DNA of 64,000 nt from assembly GCA_035764005.1 (NCBI GenBank), contig DASTZZ010000069.1:62001-126000 (forward strand), read 5' to 3'. This document shows, one piece after another, positions 10,948 through 17,976 of the stretch (the first letter of the stretch is position 1; the number at the start of each line of letters is the position of its first letter). The position numbers were made by a program, and so were the translations under genes. Below the pieces are notes generated by a model. The model searched no databases. It saw only the letters and a program-made list of their open reading frames with translations, and had not been told where the DNA came from. The stretch comes from Terriglobales bacterium. Its GTDB lineage: Bacteria > Acidobacteriota > Terriglobia > Terriglobales > Acidobacteriaceae.

Positions 10948-12306
10948 TTGCAGACTGTTTCTGCCGTGGCCAACGACATTGGGACTACCCCTACCTCCGA
11001 ACCGGGCACCTGGACCTTGCGTTTCAAGGCGCTCCCCGCGTTCCGTAGCGGAGAGCTCTGGTACTACTTCGGTCCGGCATTTGTCGCCAGTATCGCCTAT
11101 ATAGACCCAGGCAACTTCGCCGCCAACATCGAAGGTGGCACTCGCTTTGGATATTCACTGTTGTGGGTCTTGTTGTGGTCGAATGCCATGGCGATCCTGA
11201 TTCAATACCTCGCGGCTAAGCTTGGCATTGCCACCGGACGCACATTGCCTCAGTGCTGTCGCGAAAACTTCTCTCGTCGAATGAACCTGTTCTTGTGGTT
11301 CGCGGCTGAAGGAGCAGCGCTCGCAACCGACCTCGCCGAATTTCTCGGGGCGGCGCTGGGCTTTTATCTGCTGGTTGGCCCTTCGCTCGTCGCTCGCGGC
11401 TTCGATAAATCAACAGTCCTGATGCTAGCCGCTCTCGCGACTGCGGTTTGCGTCTTTCTCATTTTGGCACTCGAGCTCTATGGATTCCGCAAGCTCGAGG
11501 TCGCCATCATGATGTTCGTCTTCGGCATCGCCGCGTGCTACGCAATTGAGCTGTTCCTGGCAAAGCCAAATTGGGCACAGGTCGGATTCCACATCCTGGT
11601 GCCTGAGATCAGCTCTCAAAACATTTATGTCGCCGTCGCGATGTTAGGCGCAACGGTGATGCCGCACGTCGTATACCTGCATTCGGCCTTGGTTCAGGAT
11701 CGTGCAAGGCAGGCGACGGAAAGCTGTCCAACCGGTCAGCGAATCCATCGCCTGCGCCATCTGCAATTCGAGCTCATCGATGTTCTCGCTGCAATGAACG
11801 GTGCATGGCTAATCAACACAGCCATGATCGTCATGGCAGCCGCCGTGTTCTTCGCATCAGGAAAACACGTAACCTCGATCGAAGAGGCGCATCAAACGCT
11901 GGCTCCGTTGCTCGGCCGAGTATCCGCAGGAGCATTCGCGCTCGCGCTGCTGCTCTCAGGCCTATCTTCGTCAACGGTTGGCACCATGGCCGGCCAGGTG
12001 ATCATCGAAGGTTTCCTCAACATTCGCTTCAGCGTCTTCCTCCGCCGACTCATCACGATGATTCCCGCGCTCATCGTGATTGCCATCAAACTTGATCCAC
12101 TCAAAATTCTCCTGCTCTCCCAGGTTGCCTTGAGCTTCGCCCTTCCGTTCGCTCTGGTGCCGCTCATCGCACTCACACGCCGAGCCAGTATTATGGGCGA
12201 ACTCGCCAACGGAAAAACGACGAATGTCCTCGCTTACATAACCGTCACGGTGATCATCGGCTTGAATCTATTGCTGATTTATCAGGCCGTTGGTGGAAGC
12301 TTCTGA
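10948..12306 (+). CDS. mntH: Nramp-family divalent metal (Mn2+/Fe2+) transporter
   Basis: A 452-residue, roughly 11-helix inner-membrane proton-coupled metal importer. The first helix holds the metal-binding motif DPGN (AYIDPGNFAANIEGG) and helix 6 holds MPHVVYLHSAL, the Met-Pro-His motif that with Asp and Asn binds the ion and selects manganese or iron. Length is slightly above typical MntH (about 410-440). The start shown is TTG 10948; GTG 10966 in the same frame is equally possible. No MntR or Fur gene is near, and no metal riboswitch was recognised in the leader. Confidence 0.9.
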   Translation: MQTVSAVANDIGTTPTSEPGTWTLRFKALPAFRSGELWYYFGPAFVASIAYIDPGNFAANIEGGTRFGYSLLWVLLWSNAMAILIQYLAAKLGIATGRTLPQCCRENFSRRMNLFLWFAAEGAALATDLAEFLGAALGFYLLVGPSLVARGFDKSTVLMLAALATAVCVFLILALELYGFRKLEVAIMMFVFGIAACYAIELFLAKPNWAQVGFHILVPEISSQNIYVAVAMLGATVMPHVVYLHSALVQDRARQATESCPTGQRIHRLRHLQFELIDVLAAMNGAWLINTAMIVMAAAVFFASGKHVTSIEEAHQTLAPLLGRVSAGAFALALLLSGLSSSTVGTMAGQVIIEGFLNIRFSVFLRRLITMIPALIVIAIKLDPLKILLLSQVALSFALPFALVPLIALTRRASIMGELANGKTTNVLAYITVTVIIGLNLLLIYQAVGGSF

Positions 12307-12363: not shown

Positions 12364-12392
12364 TGGACTTAGTCTTTAGACTTAGTCATAAT
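12364..12392 (+). promoter_or_regulatory. Promoter and twin operator of the 12.4-kb toxin-antitoxin pair
   Basis: Two copies of the half-palindrome GACTTAGTC (12366-12374 and 12379-12387) lie 13 bases apart. They sit between a possible -35 box TGGACT (12364-12369) and a -10 box CATAAT (12387-12392) with 17-base spacing. The antitoxin ATG is 26 bases further on. This is the expected place for autorepression by a Phd/YefM-type antitoxin. The boxes are by-eye matches. Confidence 0.5.
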
Positions 12393-12418
12393 TGGAGTAT
12401 TCAGTTAGCGGAGCCATT

Positions 12419-12685
12419 ATGAAAGAGGTCGAAGTTAATGTGCACGAGGCGAAGACTCATCTATCGCGACTGCTGCAGCGTGTAGCGAATGGGGAGGAAA
12501 TCACGATTGCGAACCGTGGGGTCGCGGTGGCTCGTCTGGTCCCAGTAGTTCCACCTGGTAAGAATCGTCCGCTGGGTATCGATGATGGAAAGATTCGAAT
12601 TGCAGACGATTTCGATGCTCCCCTACCCGATTCAGTGCTCCACGGATTTCTCGGAAATAGCCGGCAACGAAAGAGAGCTCGTTGA
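12419..12685 (+). CDS. Phd/YefM-family antitoxin
   Basis: An 88-residue protein. The N-terminal half (EVNVHEAKTHLSRLLQRVANGEEITIANRGVAVARLVP in pieces) is the Phd/YefM fold that binds operator DNA. The C-terminal tail (about 50-88) should fold on the toxin. ATG 12419 was preferred to TTG 12392 because GGAG lies 6 bases before it and the family starts here. The stop TGA overlaps the toxin start (TTGA), the tight coupling usual for these pairs. With the PIN toxin downstream it forms a two-gene operon that should repress itself at the GACTTAGTC sites. Confidence 0.9.
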   Translation: MKEVEVNVHEAKTHLSRLLQRVANGEEITIANRGVAVARLVPVVPPGKNRPLGIDDGKIRIADDFDAPLPDSVLHGFLGNSRQRKRAR

Positions 12686-13077
12686 AGTATTTGCTCGATA
12701 CTTCCATCTTTCTTTGGATGGCAGGCTTCGTCCAAAGACTGAACCCTCAAGTCCGTGAGTTGCTGGCGGAACGAAGCGCAGAGGTGTATCTCTCGTCCGC
12801 GAGTTCTTGGGAAATTGCTATTAAGTCGGCGCTCGGAAAACTCGATTTACCCGAACCACCACCCCAATATGTGCTCCGCCGGCTTGCCGACTTCAGCATA
12901 AGATCACTCCCAATTGCCCACGACCACTCTTTCGCAACTGGCTCTCTGCCGCATTTCCACGACGATCCATTTGATCGGATGTTGATCGCGCAGGCCAGTG
13001 TCGAAGGAATGGTTATGCTCACCGCCGACAAAGTCTTCCGGCGCTATCCCGTCGAAGTTCTCTGGGCTGGGAAATAG
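12682..13077 (+). CDS. vapC: PIN-domain toxin (VapC-like ribonuclease)
   Basis: A 131-residue PIN domain. Acidic residues of the Mg2+ site are visible: Asp6 in YLLDTSIFLW, Glu in SASSWEIAIK, and Asp-Pro-Phe-Asp in FHDDPFDRMLIAQA; the fourth is in LTADKVF. The sequence is closest to the type paired with Phd-like antitoxins. Such toxins cleave tRNA or rRNA when the antitoxin is lost. Start is TTG 12682, overlapping the antitoxin stop. Nothing suggests degradation. Confidence 0.92.
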   Translation: MKYLLDTSIFLWMAGFVQRLNPQVRELLAERSAEVYLSSASSWEIAIKSALGKLDLPEPPPQYVLRRLADFSIRSLPIAHDHSFATGSLPHFHDDPFDRMLIAQASVEGMVMLTADKVFRRYPVEVLWAGK

Positions 13078-13550
13078 GTCGGCTTCGAGGCGAGGGGCGG
13101 GGGGCGAAGCCATCGCCGTTTTGTTTCGCTGGGACGAAGTCTCATTTTCCCGAGATGAATGTGCTACGTCGCCAGCTCGCCTAAATCCGCGACGCGATGT
13201 GCCTCCGTACATGAAGCAGCGTTGGCCAAACGTGGGGACAAAGTCTTCGCAAGTGGCTAATTTGCTATTGCTCGCACTAGAAGTGGCGGTTAGAATTGCC
13301 GCCCATCCACAAAGAGGTGCATACAGTTTGTCGCTGTGTGGGCCGAAATGGCTCGATTCAGAGGCGGTCTGTTCCATCACTGTGCGGAGCGGCTTCGATC
13401 TCGAGCGGCGGAGAGCTTGTCACATTTTCCGCAGCAGGGAATCACATCCGGGTGCGTAATTCAGCGCAGGGTCGAGAGCTAATCCTGGCCAGGCGCAGGC
13501 TCATGTCCGTGGTAGGAACCCCAATCCAGAAACAAAATTAGGAGAATCTC
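13078..13550. other. Gene-free gap before the bufferin cluster
   Basis: Short ORFs here show no family features. A G-rich run with GGGGCGGGGGGCG (about 13093-13107) follows the toxin stop. No clear promoter or terminator was recognised; a good ribosome site (AGGAG) is present 7 bases before the bufferin precursor ATG. Confidence 0.5.
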
Positions 13551-13841
13551 ATGACGAAGTCAGTAAAGTTGGCGATCGCAAGTGCGGCTCTGGCGGGTAT
13601 GGTGGCAGGAACCAGCGCGAGCATGTTTGCGCAGGACCAGTCGGGCAGCACCAGCACCGACAAGAGCACAAAAAAGAGCACAAAGGCCTCCAAGCACGTA
13701 AAAGAAAAACATGCTTGTAAAGGCCAAAACTCTTGTAAAGGCAAGGGCGGCTGCAAGAGCAGCGACAACGGCTGCAAAGGCAAGAACTCTTGCAAGGGCA
13801 ACGGTGGATGTGCCACTGACGGCTCCAAGATGCCGGAGTAG
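13551..13841 (+). CDS. bufA: BufA2-type bufferin precursor (Cys-rich RiPP)
   Basis: A 96-residue protein. A Sec signal peptide covers about 1-28 (ending SASMFAQ), then a Ser/Thr/Lys linker, then a core with six cysteines at 56, 62, 68, 75, 81 and 87. The core is two near-identical repeats, CKGxNSCKGxGGC, separated by KSSDNG. Cys-Lys-Gly units in a Lys/Gly-rich tail match periplasmic bufferin-type metallophore precursors, whose Cys residues are modified by an MNIO enzyme so that the peptide binds copper or another metal. The MNIO gene follows 84 bases later. The exact modification and metal are inference. Confidence 0.85.
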   Translation: MTKSVKLAIASAALAGMVAGTSASMFAQDQSGSTSTDKSTKKSTKASKHVKEKHACKGQNSCKGKGGCKSSDNGCKGKNSCKGNGGCATDGSKMPE

Positions 13842-13925
13842 TAATAGGTCCTTAGTAGTCTCGGGGCCGAGTGCTATTCTGGGACTCGGCCCTCTCTCAC
13901 TTCAGGTAGAGGTCGCAGTTTCCTA

Positions 13926-14786
13926 ATGTCGTCCAACCGCTTTAACGCGTTCAAAGATCTCGGGGTCGGGATCGGTCTCCGGATTCCTCATTACAACCAC
14001 ATCCTGAGTGAGAAGCCAGTCGTCGGCTGGTTCGAGATCATCTCAGAGAATTACATGATCGACGGCGGACGCCCGCTGCATATCCTCGACCAGATTCTCG
14101 AGCAGTACCAGGTTATCCAGCATGGCGTCTCGATGTACTTCGGCTCGGCGGAGCCTCTGAATCGCGAGCATCTGAAGAGACTCAAAGCGCTGGTGCGTCG
14201 GACGAAAACGCCGTGGCTCTCCGATCACCTGTGCTGGGGCAGCGTCGACGGCACATATAGCCACGATCTGCTGCCGATGCCGTACACCTTCGAAGCGGCG
14301 AAGCTGACGGCTGAAAAAATTAAAGAAGCACGCGACTTTCTCGAGGTGCCGATTGCGGTCGAAAACGTGAGCAGCTACGCCGAGTTTCACGTCTCAGAAA
14401 TGACGGAATGGGAATTCTTGAACGAAGTGGTCGAGCGCGCCGACTGCGGCATTCTGCTCGACGTGAACAATATCTACGTCTCGTCGCAGAACCACAACTT
14501 CGATCCGTTTACCTATCTTGAAAGCGTTCCGATTGAGCGTGTTGCGCAGATTCACATCGCCGGTCACTCAAAATACGAGAAGTACATTCTCGACACACAC
14601 GATCATCCGGTGATCGATCCAGTGTGGAAGTTATATGCGCGCGCAATCGAACTCGCTGGCCCAACTCCTACATTGCTCGAATGGGACGATCACATTCCAT
14701 CCTTCGATCAAGTTCATGCGGAAGCGCTCAAAGCGAATCGCTACGTGCCATCGAATGTTCCCGTATTAGCGGCGGTGTCGGAATGA
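13926..14786 (+). CDS. bufB: DUF692/MNIO RiPP-modifying enzyme
   Basis: A 286-residue TIM-barrel of the multinuclear non-heme iron oxidase family (MbnB-like, DUF692). Typical family elements are visible: GVGIGLRIPHY at the N-terminus, the substrate strand GWFEIISENYM, QHGVSMYFGS, LSDHLCW, AVENVSSYAEF, ILLDVNNIYVSSQNH, QIHIAGHS and LLEWDDHIPSF. The His, Asp, Asn and Glu in these segments provide the iron ligands of the family. It should oxidise Cys residues of the Cys-rich precursor encoded just upstream, using the DUF2063 protein as partner. Its stop overlaps the next start (ATGA). Length is normal (about 280). Confidence 0.95.
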   Translation: MSSNRFNAFKDLGVGIGLRIPHYNHILSEKPVVGWFEIISENYMIDGGRPLHILDQILEQYQVIQHGVSMYFGSAEPLNREHLKRLKALVRRTKTPWLSDHLCWGSVDGTYSHDLLPMPYTFEAAKLTAEKIKEARDFLEVPIAVENVSSYAEFHVSEMTEWEFLNEVVERADCGILLDVNNIYVSSQNHNFDPFTYLESVPIERVAQIHIAGHSKYEKYILDTHDHPVIDPVWKLYARAIELAGPTPTLLEWDDHIPSFDQVHAEALKANRYVPSNVPVLAAVSE

Positions 14787-15667
14787 ATCTGGCAGAACTC
14801 CAGCGCCGTTTTTCTGAAGCGTTATACACGCCGCTCAATTCCGATGAAGGAATCGCGGATCGCACACCGAGCGGCGAATCGATGCAGCGGGTTGCCGAAA
14901 CGATCATTAAACCGAACGATCGCTTGAGTTCAACCGAGCGGCTTGAGATCTACAGCCGCTCTTATTGGTTTCGACTGATCTCCAGCCTCAACGACGATTT
15001 CGTCGGTTTACGTGCAGTGGTTGGTGACGAAAACTTTGATGCGCTGGTTCAGACATATCTGACTGCGAATCCATCGCGATCTTTTACATTGCGCAATCTG
15101 GGCTCACGCCTGGAATCGTGGCTGCGCGGGAATCCGCAATACATTCATCCCCACGAACAGCTAGCGCTCGACATGGTTCGCCTGGAATGGGCGGACACCG
15201 AGTGCTTCGATGCCGCAGAAGAACCAGCGCTCACTCTCGATGACGCCACGCATCTCGCCGAAGATCCAAAGCTGCGCTTGCAGCCACACATTCAATTACT
15301 CGATCTGAACTACCCGGTTGACAAATTGCTGCTCGAAATCCGAGAAGAAGCAGAAGACGAGTCTGACGAAGCAAGCAATACCTTCTCTGAGAGACGCAGC
15401 CGCGCACGCGTTAAACGCGTGCGTAATGCCAAACCGAAGCCGGTCTTTGTAGTCGTCCATCGCGTCGATTACCTCGTGTATTTCAAACGAGTCACGCCGG
15501 AAGCTTTTCGGATTCTGGCTTCGCTCCGAAATGGGATGCGATTGTCGGAAACGATTGACGCCGCGTTCAATCCCTCTACCCTGCCACAAAAGAAAATCAC
15601 CGAACTGGTTCAAGGTTGGTTTCGCGACTGGGCGGAGTGGAAGTGGTTTGCGAAAGTAGCTGCTTAA
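14783..15667 (+). CDS. bufC: DUF2063 partner protein of the MNIO enzyme
   Basis: A 294-residue protein. The N-terminal half (about 1-150) is the DUF2063 helical domain (LQRRFSEALYTPL, LEIYSRSYWFRLISSLNDDF, LALDMVRLEWADTE), which in this family recruits the precursor to the enzyme. The C-terminal part (about 165-294) contains a basic linker (ERRSRARVKRVRNAKPK) and a second domain with VVHRVDYLVYFKRV, a C-terminal extension seen in BufC-type proteins. The start ATG 14783 overlaps the enzyme stop by four bases, so translation is coupled. No transporter or sigma factor follows. Confidence 0.9.
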   Translation: MNLAELQRRFSEALYTPLNSDEGIADRTPSGESMQRVAETIIKPNDRLSSTERLEIYSRSYWFRLISSLNDDFVGLRAVVGDENFDALVQTYLTANPSRSFTLRNLGSRLESWLRGNPQYIHPHEQLALDMVRLEWADTECFDAAEEPALTLDDATHLAEDPKLRLQPHIQLLDLNYPVDKLLLEIREEAEDESDEASNTFSERRSRARVKRVRNAKPKPVFVVVHRVDYLVYFKRVTPEAFRILASLRNGMRLSETIDAAFNPSTLPQKKITELVQGWFRDWAEWKWFAKVAA

Positions 15668-15831: not shown

Positions 15832-17319
15832 ATGCACGCAAAAATCCCGAATGTAACTACTGCTTCAAAATGGATCCTGCTCTTTTTCGCGCTGTTGACG
15901 ACGGCTTATCTCGCGGCTCAACAGGAACCTTGGCAAAAAATCCCCATCCCTCCTCTCCACAAATTCACGCCGCAGGAGCCCACGCGCATTCAGCTCTCCA
16001 ACGGCATGGTGATCATGCTGCAGGAGGATCACGAGCTGCCGCTGATCAGCGCGACTGCTCTGGTAAAGGGCGGATCAAGTTCCGAGCCGGCATCGAAGGT
16101 GGGATTAACTTCGATTTACGCCTCCACCTGGCGCACCGGAGGCACAGACAGCAAAACCGGCGATCAACTCGACGATGAACTCGAAGCCATTGCCGCCCGG
16201 GTAGAGGCAGGCGGAAGCATCGATACCACTTCGCTCAGCTTCAACTGCTTGAAACAGAACCTCGACCAGGTATTCGCCGCCTTTCTTGATCTCCTGGAGC
16301 ATCCCGCATTTCGTGAAGACAAGATCGAGCTTGTAAAAGGCCGCATCAAGACTGCCATTTCGCGCCGAAATGACGAAGTCGGCAGCATTGCCGGGCGTGA
16401 AGCTGCCATTTTGGGCTATGGTCCGCAAAGCCCTTATGCGCGCGAAATGGAGTATTGGACCGTGGATGCGGTCACTCGGCAGGACTTAGTCAATTGGCAC
16501 AAACAGCACTTCGCGCCCAATAACATCATCATCGGAGTAGTTGGCGATTTCGACTCCAAACAGATGGAAAGTCGACTGCGCCAGGCGTTCGGATCGTTGC
16601 CGAAAGGTACTCCATATAATCCGCCGCAAATTCCCGTTCCGGGACCAAAGCCCGGCGTATATCTTGCCGAAAAGGACGATGTGAACCAGAGCGACATCAG
16701 CCTCATCGGTCTGGGAATCCGCCGCGACAATCCCGACTACTTCGCTGTACGCGTGATGAACGAAATCTTCGGCGGAGGCTTTTCTTCGCGGTTATTCAAA
16801 AATCTCCGTGCCACGCAGGCTCTGGCTTATTCCGTGGGCGGTGGCATCGGCGCGAGTTATAACCACAAGGGTCTGATCGACATCAACATGGGCACGAAGA
16901 GCGGTTCGACCGCGAAGGCGATCGAGGGACTCTACAAACAGATCGATGATCTGCTCAGCAATCCGCCCACTGACGCCGAACTGAAGCAAGCCAAAGACTC
17001 GATCCTAAACGGTTTTATTTTCGCCTACGACTCGCCCGACAAGGTTCTGAGTGAGCAATTGACTTACGAGCTGTACGGCTATCCTAAAGATTTCCTGGAA
17101 CGGTTCCGCGATGCGGTGGAAAAAGTCACAGCTGCAGACGTGAACCGCGTCGCCCGCAAGTACATCGACAAAAGCAAACTCGCCGTACTGGTGGTTGGAA
17201 ACCCGAAGGAGTTCGACAAACCGCTCACCGCCTTCGGACAAGTAACGACGCTCGATATCACCATCCCCACCGCGCCGCCTGGAAATAAAGCAGCCGTTGC
17301 TGCAAGTGAGAGACGATAA
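15832..17319 (+). CDS. M16-family protein lacking the zinc motif
   Basis: A 495-residue exported protein (signal peptide about 12-30) with two M16 domains: RIQLSNGMVIMLQEDHELPL starts the first, and the second includes the R/Y motif NLRATQALAYSVGGG typical of the C-terminal half. Where active M16 peptidases have HxxEH, this protein reads LTSIYASTWRTGG, with no His or Glu ligands. It therefore looks like the non-catalytic subunit that pairs with an active M16 protein. No active partner lies in the window. Upstream is the bufferin cluster, but the 164-base gap gives no sign of one operon. Confidence 0.88.
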   Translation: MHAKIPNVTTASKWILLFFALLTTAYLAAQQEPWQKIPIPPLHKFTPQEPTRIQLSNGMVIMLQEDHELPLISATALVKGGSSSEPASKVGLTSIYASTWRTGGTDSKTGDQLDDELEAIAARVEAGGSIDTTSLSFNCLKQNLDQVFAAFLDLLEHPAFREDKIELVKGRIKTAISRRNDEVGSIAGREAAILGYGPQSPYAREMEYWTVDAVTRQDLVNWHKQHFAPNNIIIGVVGDFDSKQMESRLRQAFGSLPKGTPYNPPQIPVPGPKPGVYLAEKDDVNQSDISLIGLGIRRDNPDYFAVRVMNEIFGGGFSSRLFKNLRATQALAYSVGGGIGASYNHKGLIDINMGTKSGSTAKAIEGLYKQIDDLLSNPPTDAELKQAKDSILNGFIFAYDSPDKVLSEQLTYELYGYPKDFLERFRDAVEKVTAADVNRVARKYIDKSKLAVLVVGNPKEFDKPLTAFGQVTTLDITIPTAPPGNKAAVAASERR

Positions 17320-17424
17320 CCCAGGAGCGAACACGAAGGTCACGAAGGTAGAAACGATAAGGTCACAAAAAAGTCTTCGTGACCTCTTCTTTTTACCTTT
17401 GTGACCTTCGTGTTCGCTCCTGGG
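17320..17424. repeat. Dispersed inverted repeat, CACGAAGG family, copy 2
   Basis: Left arm CCCAGGAGCGAACACGAAGG (17320 on) and right arm ending CCTTCGTGTTCGCTCCTGGG (to 17424) are a perfect 20-bp match with further pairing inside. An inner pair (AAGGTCAC and GTGACCT) gives a second small stem. It begins immediately after the stop of the M16 gene and lies upstream of sodC. Confidence 0.9.
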
Positions 17425-17457
17425 TTTAGAATTCCGGGGCACAGGAGAGTTCGACAC

Positions 17458-17976
17458 ATGAAGAATCAACTCATGCCATTCGTTATTGTCTTTGCGGGAA
17501 TAGCCATCGCGGCTAGCGCGAAAGACAAAGGCGCAACCGTGCAGATGAAGAACGCACAAGGCGAGGACGTAGGCACGGCAACGCTATCATCGGCAGGAAA
17601 GAAAGGCGTGAAGATCAAACTCGATCTGAAAAATCTGCCGCCAGGTGAGCACGCCATTCACATTCATCAGAACGCGAAATGCGATCCGCCGGACTTCAAA
17701 TCAGCCGGCAGCCACTTCAATCCCGACAACAAGAAGCATGGCTTGGAAAATCCCGAAGGCCACCACGCCGGCGACATGAAAAACTTCAATGTAGCCAGCG
17801 CCGGCACGGCGAAGACAGCGGTCACAGACTCCGATGTGACGCTCGGAACCGACAGTCACTCAGTATTCAGCAATGGCGGCACAGCTCTGATCATTCACGC
17901 CAAAGCCGATGACATGAAGTCCGATCCAGCAGGAAATGCCGGAGACCGCATCGCCTGTGGAGTGATCTCGAAATAA
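17458..17976 (+). CDS. sodC: Periplasmic Cu/Zn superoxide dismutase
   Basis: A 172-residue enzyme converting superoxide to peroxide and oxygen in the periplasm. Residues 1-20 are a signal peptide. Copper ligands are in [11 protein letters not shown] and the later [10 protein letters not shown]; bridging and zinc ligands lie in [25 protein letters not shown]. The disulfide cysteines are in NAKCDPP and RIACGVI. All ligands of the family appear present. ATG 17458 has AGGAG 11 bases before it; the upstream frame only crosses the inverted repeat. It is convergent with the dcw cluster. Confidence 0.96.

Follow-up and report, generated by a model that had tools for sequence, protein, structure and literature searches.

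The window, by which we mean the whole 64,000-nt stretch of a Terriglobales genome analysed here, contains an operon of three genes, bufA, bufB and bufC. We interpret it, with a probability of about 0.8, as a metallophore operon of the bufferin-2 type ("Cys-Lys" captophorins) that buffers copper and is transcribed from an ECF-sigma promoter. By analogy with characterised systems, its product is very probably a small modified Cys-rich peptide that binds copper outside the cytoplasm. The operon is a variant of a known system, with its own layout of Cys residues and a conserved promoter element of the ECF type.

Genes of the operon and their products

The precursor, DUF692/MNIO and DUF2063 genes follow each other on the forward strand as first described, and the open reading frames confirm their positions (Table 1). 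bufB and bufC overlap by 4 nt (ATGA), an arrangement shared by 53 of 76 relatives. The 84-nt gap between bufA and bufB contains a hairpin. Hence the translational coupling proposed for all three genes is supported only for bufB and bufC.

Table 1. Positions of genes and candidate signals in the window.
Feature	Position	Strand	Evidence
ECF-sigma-type promoter-like element TTGTCACATTTTCCGCAGCAGGGAATCACAT	13417..13447	+	matrix scan; same-genus relatives
−35-like box TGTCACAT	13418-13425	+	part of promoter-like element
−10-like box GAATCACA	13439-13446	+	part of promoter-like element
RBS of bufA, AGGAGA	13540..13545	+	sequence; AAGGAGA enriched upstream of bufA in relatives
bufA, precursor peptide, 96 aa	13551..13841	+	NF050166 BufA2 match; hydropathy
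bufA-bufB stem-loop, 9-bp perfect GC-rich stem GGGCCGAGT/ACTCGGCCC	13864..13892	+	folding; hairpin class conserved in relatives
bufB, MNIO (DUF692) maturase, 286 aa	13926..14786	+	NF050167; PF05114; 3bww/TglH/MbnB homologues; residue conservation
bufC, DUF2063-RRE partner, 294 aa	14783..15667	+	PF09836; AlphaFold2 pLDDT 93; Foldseek

By the curated test the enzyme is BufB: it scores 353.5 bits against the MNIO_BufB model NF050167 (cut-off 310) and stays below the cut-offs of the HvfB, ApyH, ChrH and MbnB models, the HvfB model giving 257 bits. Its homologues include PDB 3bww, TglH and MbnB, and the iron ligands, whose check against MNIO proteins had been recommended, are present wherever the alignments with these three proteins reach. 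Residues H66, H101, E146, D179, N181/N182, H210, D223, H225, E252 and D254 are invariant in all 103 BufB homologues, D254 being the proposed catalytic base. The adjacent D255 is present in 93 of the 103. According to PMC13097082, the MNIOs of Cys-Lys captophorins carry an Asp at the FonB-F250/BufB2-D251 site, where it is modelled as meeting the substrate Lys. The window's operon combines both features of that group, with D255 at the Asp site and Lys after the target Cys. D255 is predicted to be the Cys-Lys specificity residue, as in the copper-linked BufB2 type, and nothing points to a metal other than copper for this operon. Several genomes of the same genus or family (G001:C34:24623, G004:C36:126054, G002:C193:16737 and others) encode a second MNIO family, which is distantly related (about 30% identical) and absent from the window's genome.

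BufC is a PME-type 1 partner (DUF2063-RRE) by both signature and fold. It scores 60.5 bits against PF09836 (cut-off 27.2) and 46.6 bits against HvfC (NF050145), where the cut-off is 142. Its sequence retrieved nothing meaningful from PDB sequences; homologues were found instead by fold, the AlphaFold2 model matching TglI, the DUF2063-RRE protein NGO1945 (3dee; TM 0.75 by target length) and the RRE protein TbiB1 in Foldseek.

The precursor BufA starts with MTKSVKLAIASAALAGMVAGTSASMFAQ; a Lys-rich linker then leads to the core (residues 56–87), which has Cys at positions 56, 62, 68, 75, 81 and 87. Both the spacing of 6,6,7,6,6 and the two near-copies of CKGxNSCKGxGGC agree with the earlier note. 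Judging by hydropathy, residues 1 to about 28 form a hydrophobic, signal-peptide-like segment, in which the hydrophobic residues 7–18 come after Lys. Lys follows five of the six Cys; in most relatives it follows Cys1–5, and Ala follows Cys6. Like Buf2 precursors, which have six or twelve conserved Cys, BufA is encoded just before the MNIO gene and has six; the sixth Cys stands 6 residues after the fifth and not in a C-terminal tail. This displaced Cys is a likely reason why BufA, at 31.8 bits (E 1.3e-7), remains below the curated cut-off of the BufA2 model NF050166 (60 bits). Every one of the 44 aligned precursors of relatives hits this model as well; of the precursors from 100 related genomes, only a 12-Cys form exceeds its cut-off. 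On its sequence, BufA can be classed as a divergent Buf2 precursor failing the present curated threshold. An AlphaFold2 model of the precursor built with 44 sequences had no usable fold (pLDDT 51), and a search of PLSDB plasmids returned no match. In one relative the precursor has an additional match (E 0.004), to TIGR04081, the SbtA thio(seleno)oxazole precursor family.

Taken with the BufB score above its cut-off and the fold of BufC, the BufA2 match supports the suggestion that a bufferin-type RiPP operon is present in an acidobacterium. Two observations had been named as counting against it, a small ORF matching no bufferin family and a Cys pattern lost in relatives. The outcome favoured the suggestion on both, with the BufA2 match below the cut-off.

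At least 575 related MNIO loci were found in GTDB genomes. The best 80 of them belong to Acidobacteriota, Verrucomicrobiota and a few records titled Planctomycetota, and such titles of MAGs may be wrong. About 98 loci, most of them from acidobacteria or verrucomicrobia, have the Cys pattern in front of the MNIO gene, and the spacing is exactly 6,6,7,6,6 in 72 of the 98 precursors read, which places the pattern far beyond chance. Fourteen of the 98 have four Cys with spacings 6,14,6, 6,16,6 or 6,11,6 and lack both Cys3 and Cys4 (loci L057, L065-L068, L070, L094, L017, L020, L072, L074, L076, L053 and L083); this joint loss took at least three changes on the MNIO tree. Cys4 alone is missing in four precursors. 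Two others (L023, L024) have twelve Cys in two copies of the 6,6,7,6,6 core, and their MNIOs carry Glu, not Asp, at the 255 site. Since an MNIO match, sometimes only a distant one, was found in only 31 of 100 relatives of the window's genome, the operon is patchily distributed.

Upstream element, stem-loop and gene neighbourhood

The earlier note found no recognised metal-responsive site upstream of bufA. Patterns of CopY, CsoR-like, CueR, Fur and Zur/NikR-like operators are indeed absent from 95 bufA upstream regions, but the promoter-like element listed in Table 1 had been missed. The motifs CTGTAAC and TGTAACC each occur in 22 of the 95 regions, against 0.7–0.8 expected, and once the regions were aligned on this sequence, a second box, TC..A, appeared 24 nt on. 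With the refined matrix, CTGTAACCTTT-N-GGGAATCTAAC, 46 of the 95 loci beat every one of 400 shuffles. Roughly half of the loci have an element of the form TGTAACC-N17-TCTAA ahead of bufA, and the other half are without it. When the matrix was trained without the window's genus, the element in the window ranked first of 127,940 positions (both strands, 64 kb); three same-genus relatives have it at the same position.

The layout looks like that of ECF-sigma promoters, and we consider the element a candidate stress-sigma promoter. Its −35-like box resembles the GTAAC of the EcfF promoter, GTAAC-N14-15-(t/c)CG(t/a) (PMC3420878), whereas the −10-like box differs; the sequence GTAACC also occurs in the Caulobacter sigF paper (PMC3511200). 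A scan for sigma-70 promoters and terminators yielded promoters not above shuffles. A genome-wide regulon search with a degenerate pattern of the element gave occurrences near chance level, so that the one match in the window's genome is no evidence in itself.

Gene neighbourhoods were counted in the best 80 of the at least 575 related MNIO loci (GTDB genomes). DoxX is linked in 42 of these 80 loci and an ECF sigma, by homology, in 29–30, of which 23 have an adjacent zf-HC2 protein, probably the anti-sigma partner. These genes come in several arrangements, including the co-directional bufABC-doxX-ecf-zfHC2. The element (score 13 or more) is carried by all 23 loci with a linked ECF/zf-HC2 pair and by about one in five of the others. 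The corresponding Fisher p of 2e-11, from 2x2 counts compiled by hand from the neighbourhood data, is inflated by shared ancestry, since the association is clade-bound and the tree allows only five independent pairs to be formed.

In each of the four same-genus genomes that carry the operon, the gene right after bufC encodes DoxX. In the window's genome the nearest DoxX is encoded on another contig (68–70% identical to same-genus DoxX), and the ECF/zf-HC2 pair nearest to the linked type is likewise unlinked (42% and 30% identical). The window has no linked ECF sigma or NrsF of the kind found in Buf1-type regulation. The sister genome G001 carries an unlinked ECF gene (50% identical) that is immediately preceded by the element. 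These observations are most simply explained if the window's lineage lost the linkage and kept the regulation. The missing sigma factor and DoxX had been taken as a hint of different regulation or a different metal; this is unsupported, because it rests on absences that the relatives explain mostly by lost linkage: they have DoxX after bufC, the promoter element was kept, and the MNIO has the Cys-Lys residue.

The stem-loop between bufA and bufB is unremarkable in the window itself (z −1.1 against shuffles). Over the bufA-bufB gaps of 92 loci of unlike sequence, the median z is −3.0 and 69 gaps fall below −2. Control stretches gave medians of −0.55 (upstream of bufA) and 0.1 (inside bufB), and control same-direction gaps of 45–150 nt a median of −0.15, with 8 of 61 below −2. 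The 8 nt 3' of the stem are enriched in T (2.9 vs 2.0, p 9e-5), and an Rfam search gave no match. The stem-loop is not peculiar to this clade but a feature of the class, since a hairpin of this kind was likewise seen in most of the Pseudomonadota bufferin operons examined. Its likeliest role would be that of a leaky terminator leaving bufA more abundant than bufBC; the read-through between nisA and nisB provides an analogy. The gap of the G005 locus (L006/L125) measures 273 nt and contains an inverted repeat (z −11) that is very long but imperfect and might be a repeat element inserted there.

The remark that no transporter adjoins the operon needs correction, since a gene for an Nramp-family divalent metal transporter (10948-12306, 384 bits) lies on the same strand and ends 1.24 kb before bufA starts; even within the genus its presence there is not conserved. 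A Phd/YefM antitoxin and PIN-domain toxin pair (12392-13077) separates it from bufA, and one distant relative (L045) has a comparable pair ahead of its buf genes. Downstream of bufC are genes for an M16 peptidase-like protein and a Cu/Zn superoxide dismutase (15832-17976). Nramp, Phd/PIN, M16 and SodC were rejected as functional partners, being, with the exception of one Phd/PIN pair, not conserved in the four same-genus or the 80 other loci. In about 15 loci buf is adjoined by a gene for a 352-aa secreted-looking protein with an HExxH-like motif (THEMIH) and no Pfam match (e.g. L050, from about 7406, + strand). Near 15 loci a small hydrophobic protein of no known family is encoded beside the ECF/zf-HC2 genes; in L105 it lies just upstream of bufA on the − strand, at −669 relative to bufB.

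Proposed function and alternatives

As we envisage it, transcription probably starts about 100 nt upstream, at the ECF-sigma-type promoter. It would depend on a sigma factor that is encoded with its zf-HC2 partner beside the operon in many relatives and is presumably unlinked in the window's genome. The stem-loop after bufA, acting as a leaky terminator, would probably yield more precursor than enzyme mRNA. BufC would hold the precursor by its N-terminal part. BufB would act as a diiron MNIO and convert Cys of the two CKG repeats into 5-thiooxazoles in a four-electron oxidation, its Asp255 being positioned to contact the Lys that follows each target Cys. Once modified, the peptide would be exported through Sec, and in the periplasm its Lys-rich thiooxazole core would bind and buffer Cu(I)/Cu(II) when copper, or thiol-reactive metals in general, cause stress. 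We infer thiooxazole formation, export and copper binding from characterised relatives, in which the same enzyme pair is associated with thiooxazoles, a 305 nm band, Cu binding and copper protection (PMC12452194, PMC13097082). We likewise infer which type of sigma factor acts here and what effect the stem-loop has.

The same chemistry could serve another job, with copper secondary: a response to oxidants, Au, Hg, Cd, Cr or sulphur stress, or a redox buffer. The linkage of DoxX (42) and of ECF/zf-HC2 pairs (23) among the best 80 of at least 575 loci is compatible with such a role, as are the response of the Caulobacter sigF buf operons to chromate and cadmium (PMC3511200) and the gold-induced and MerC-fused bufferins described in PMC12452194. 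We consider it unlikely, given that the bufferins and captophorins tested so far bind copper, that the MNIO specificity residue is that of the copper-linked BufB2, and that no gene for handling another metal is conserved beside the operon. The peptide could also be a hybrid of thiooxazole peptide and metallothionein, in which some Cys become thiooxazoles and others form disulphides or serve as thiolate ligands. The Ala after Cys6 in most relatives, with Lys restricted to Cys1–5, fits this possibility, and so do the disulphide formed by the outer Cys of Buf1 (PMC12452194) and the absence of Cys3 and Cys4 together in 14 loci through three or more changes on the tree; we would give it somewhat less than even odds.

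The upstream element might also be the operator of an unlinked regulator, as it consists of two boxes at a fixed spacing and most loci are without a linked sigma/zf-HC2 pair. We regard this as improbable: TGTAAC resembles the GTAAC −35 of metal- and ROS-responsive ECF promoters (EcfF, PMC3420878; GTAACC also in PMC3511200), TGTAACC is found upstream of the Novosphingobium Buf2 gene, the pair, where linked, is an ECF sigma with a zf-HC2 protein, and the unlinked ECF gene of G001 is itself preceded by the element. That the operon is a chance ORF or a misassembly is refuted by its position in the middle of a 241-kb contig and by the recurrence of its gene order, overlap and Cys pattern across some 100 genomes of several phyla.

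The bufferin-2 reading can be extended to a broader proposal, which we put forward tentatively, at slightly less than an even chance. Acidobacteriota, Verrucomicrobiota and perhaps some Planctomycetota would share a bufferin-2 subfamily built of two tandem tri-Cys modules, with some lineages having lost the two junction Cys (3 and 4) jointly. A dedicated ECF sigma/zf-HC2 pair acting via TGTAACC-N17-TCTAA would switch the operon in Acidobacteriaceae, with a leaky terminator behind bufA metering its expression. The lineage of the window would have retained the promoter and lost the linkage to the regulatory and DoxX genes.

Acidobacteria and verrucomicrobia rank with the most common bacteria of soils, and to our knowledge their copper handling has been little studied. 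If the proposal holds, a large and mostly unnamed set of their small ORFs, missed by the curated model, would be thiooxazole metallophores. Cultured Edaphobacter, Granulicella and Silvibacterium would allow a direct test of a sigma switch for bufferin-2, which the published survey tied to bufferin-1 only. The natural 4-, 6- and 12-Cys variants offer material for establishing which Cys are modified and which bind metal, and the bufA-bufB stem-loop suggests how such RiPP operons keep the precursor in excess of the enzyme.

Comparison with known systems

With bufferin-2 (Buf2, Buf_6/12Cys; BufA2-BufB2-BufC2; NF050166/NF050167; PMC12452194), the operon shares the bufABC order, a putatively Sec-like N-terminus, a BufB equivalog and a DUF2063-RRE partner, as well as six Cys, the first five spaced 6,6,7,6, with CKGxN motifs; a doubled 12-Cys form exists in both. 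The Pseudomonadota Buf2 precursors of Thiothrix, Pseudomonas luteola and Novosphingobium end in CKGxG[WF] with the sixth Cys in a longer tail, whereas the motif here is CKGxGGC, the first Cys is followed by Lys and BufA scores below the NCBIfam cut-off. The survey (PMC12452194) reports sigma/NrsF genes with Buf1 and not with Buf2; in contrast, part of the present clade has a linked ECF sigma with zf-HC2. The Novosphingobium Buf2 locus also has a neighbouring sigma/DUF1109 pair, although a DUF2282 gene lies opposite.

In the Cys-Lys captophorins (PMC13097082), too, the MNIO carries Asp at the position of FonB-F250, and a Lys follows the target Cys; the accessible part of that paper describes no members from these phyla, and the thiooxazole of the window's peptide is a prediction. 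Bufferin-1 (DUF2282) of the Caulobacter sigma-F/NrsF system (PMC3511200) resembles it in the MNIO-DUF2063-DoxX set, controlled there by an ECF sigma, and differs in the precursor family; here the −10-like box is TCTAA and a zf-HC2 protein replaces NrsF. Finally, oxazolin/HvfABC (EGKCG type) uses the same type of enzyme pair, but BufB and BufC fall below the HvfB and HvfC cut-offs, and Lys precedes Cys there whereas it follows Cys here.
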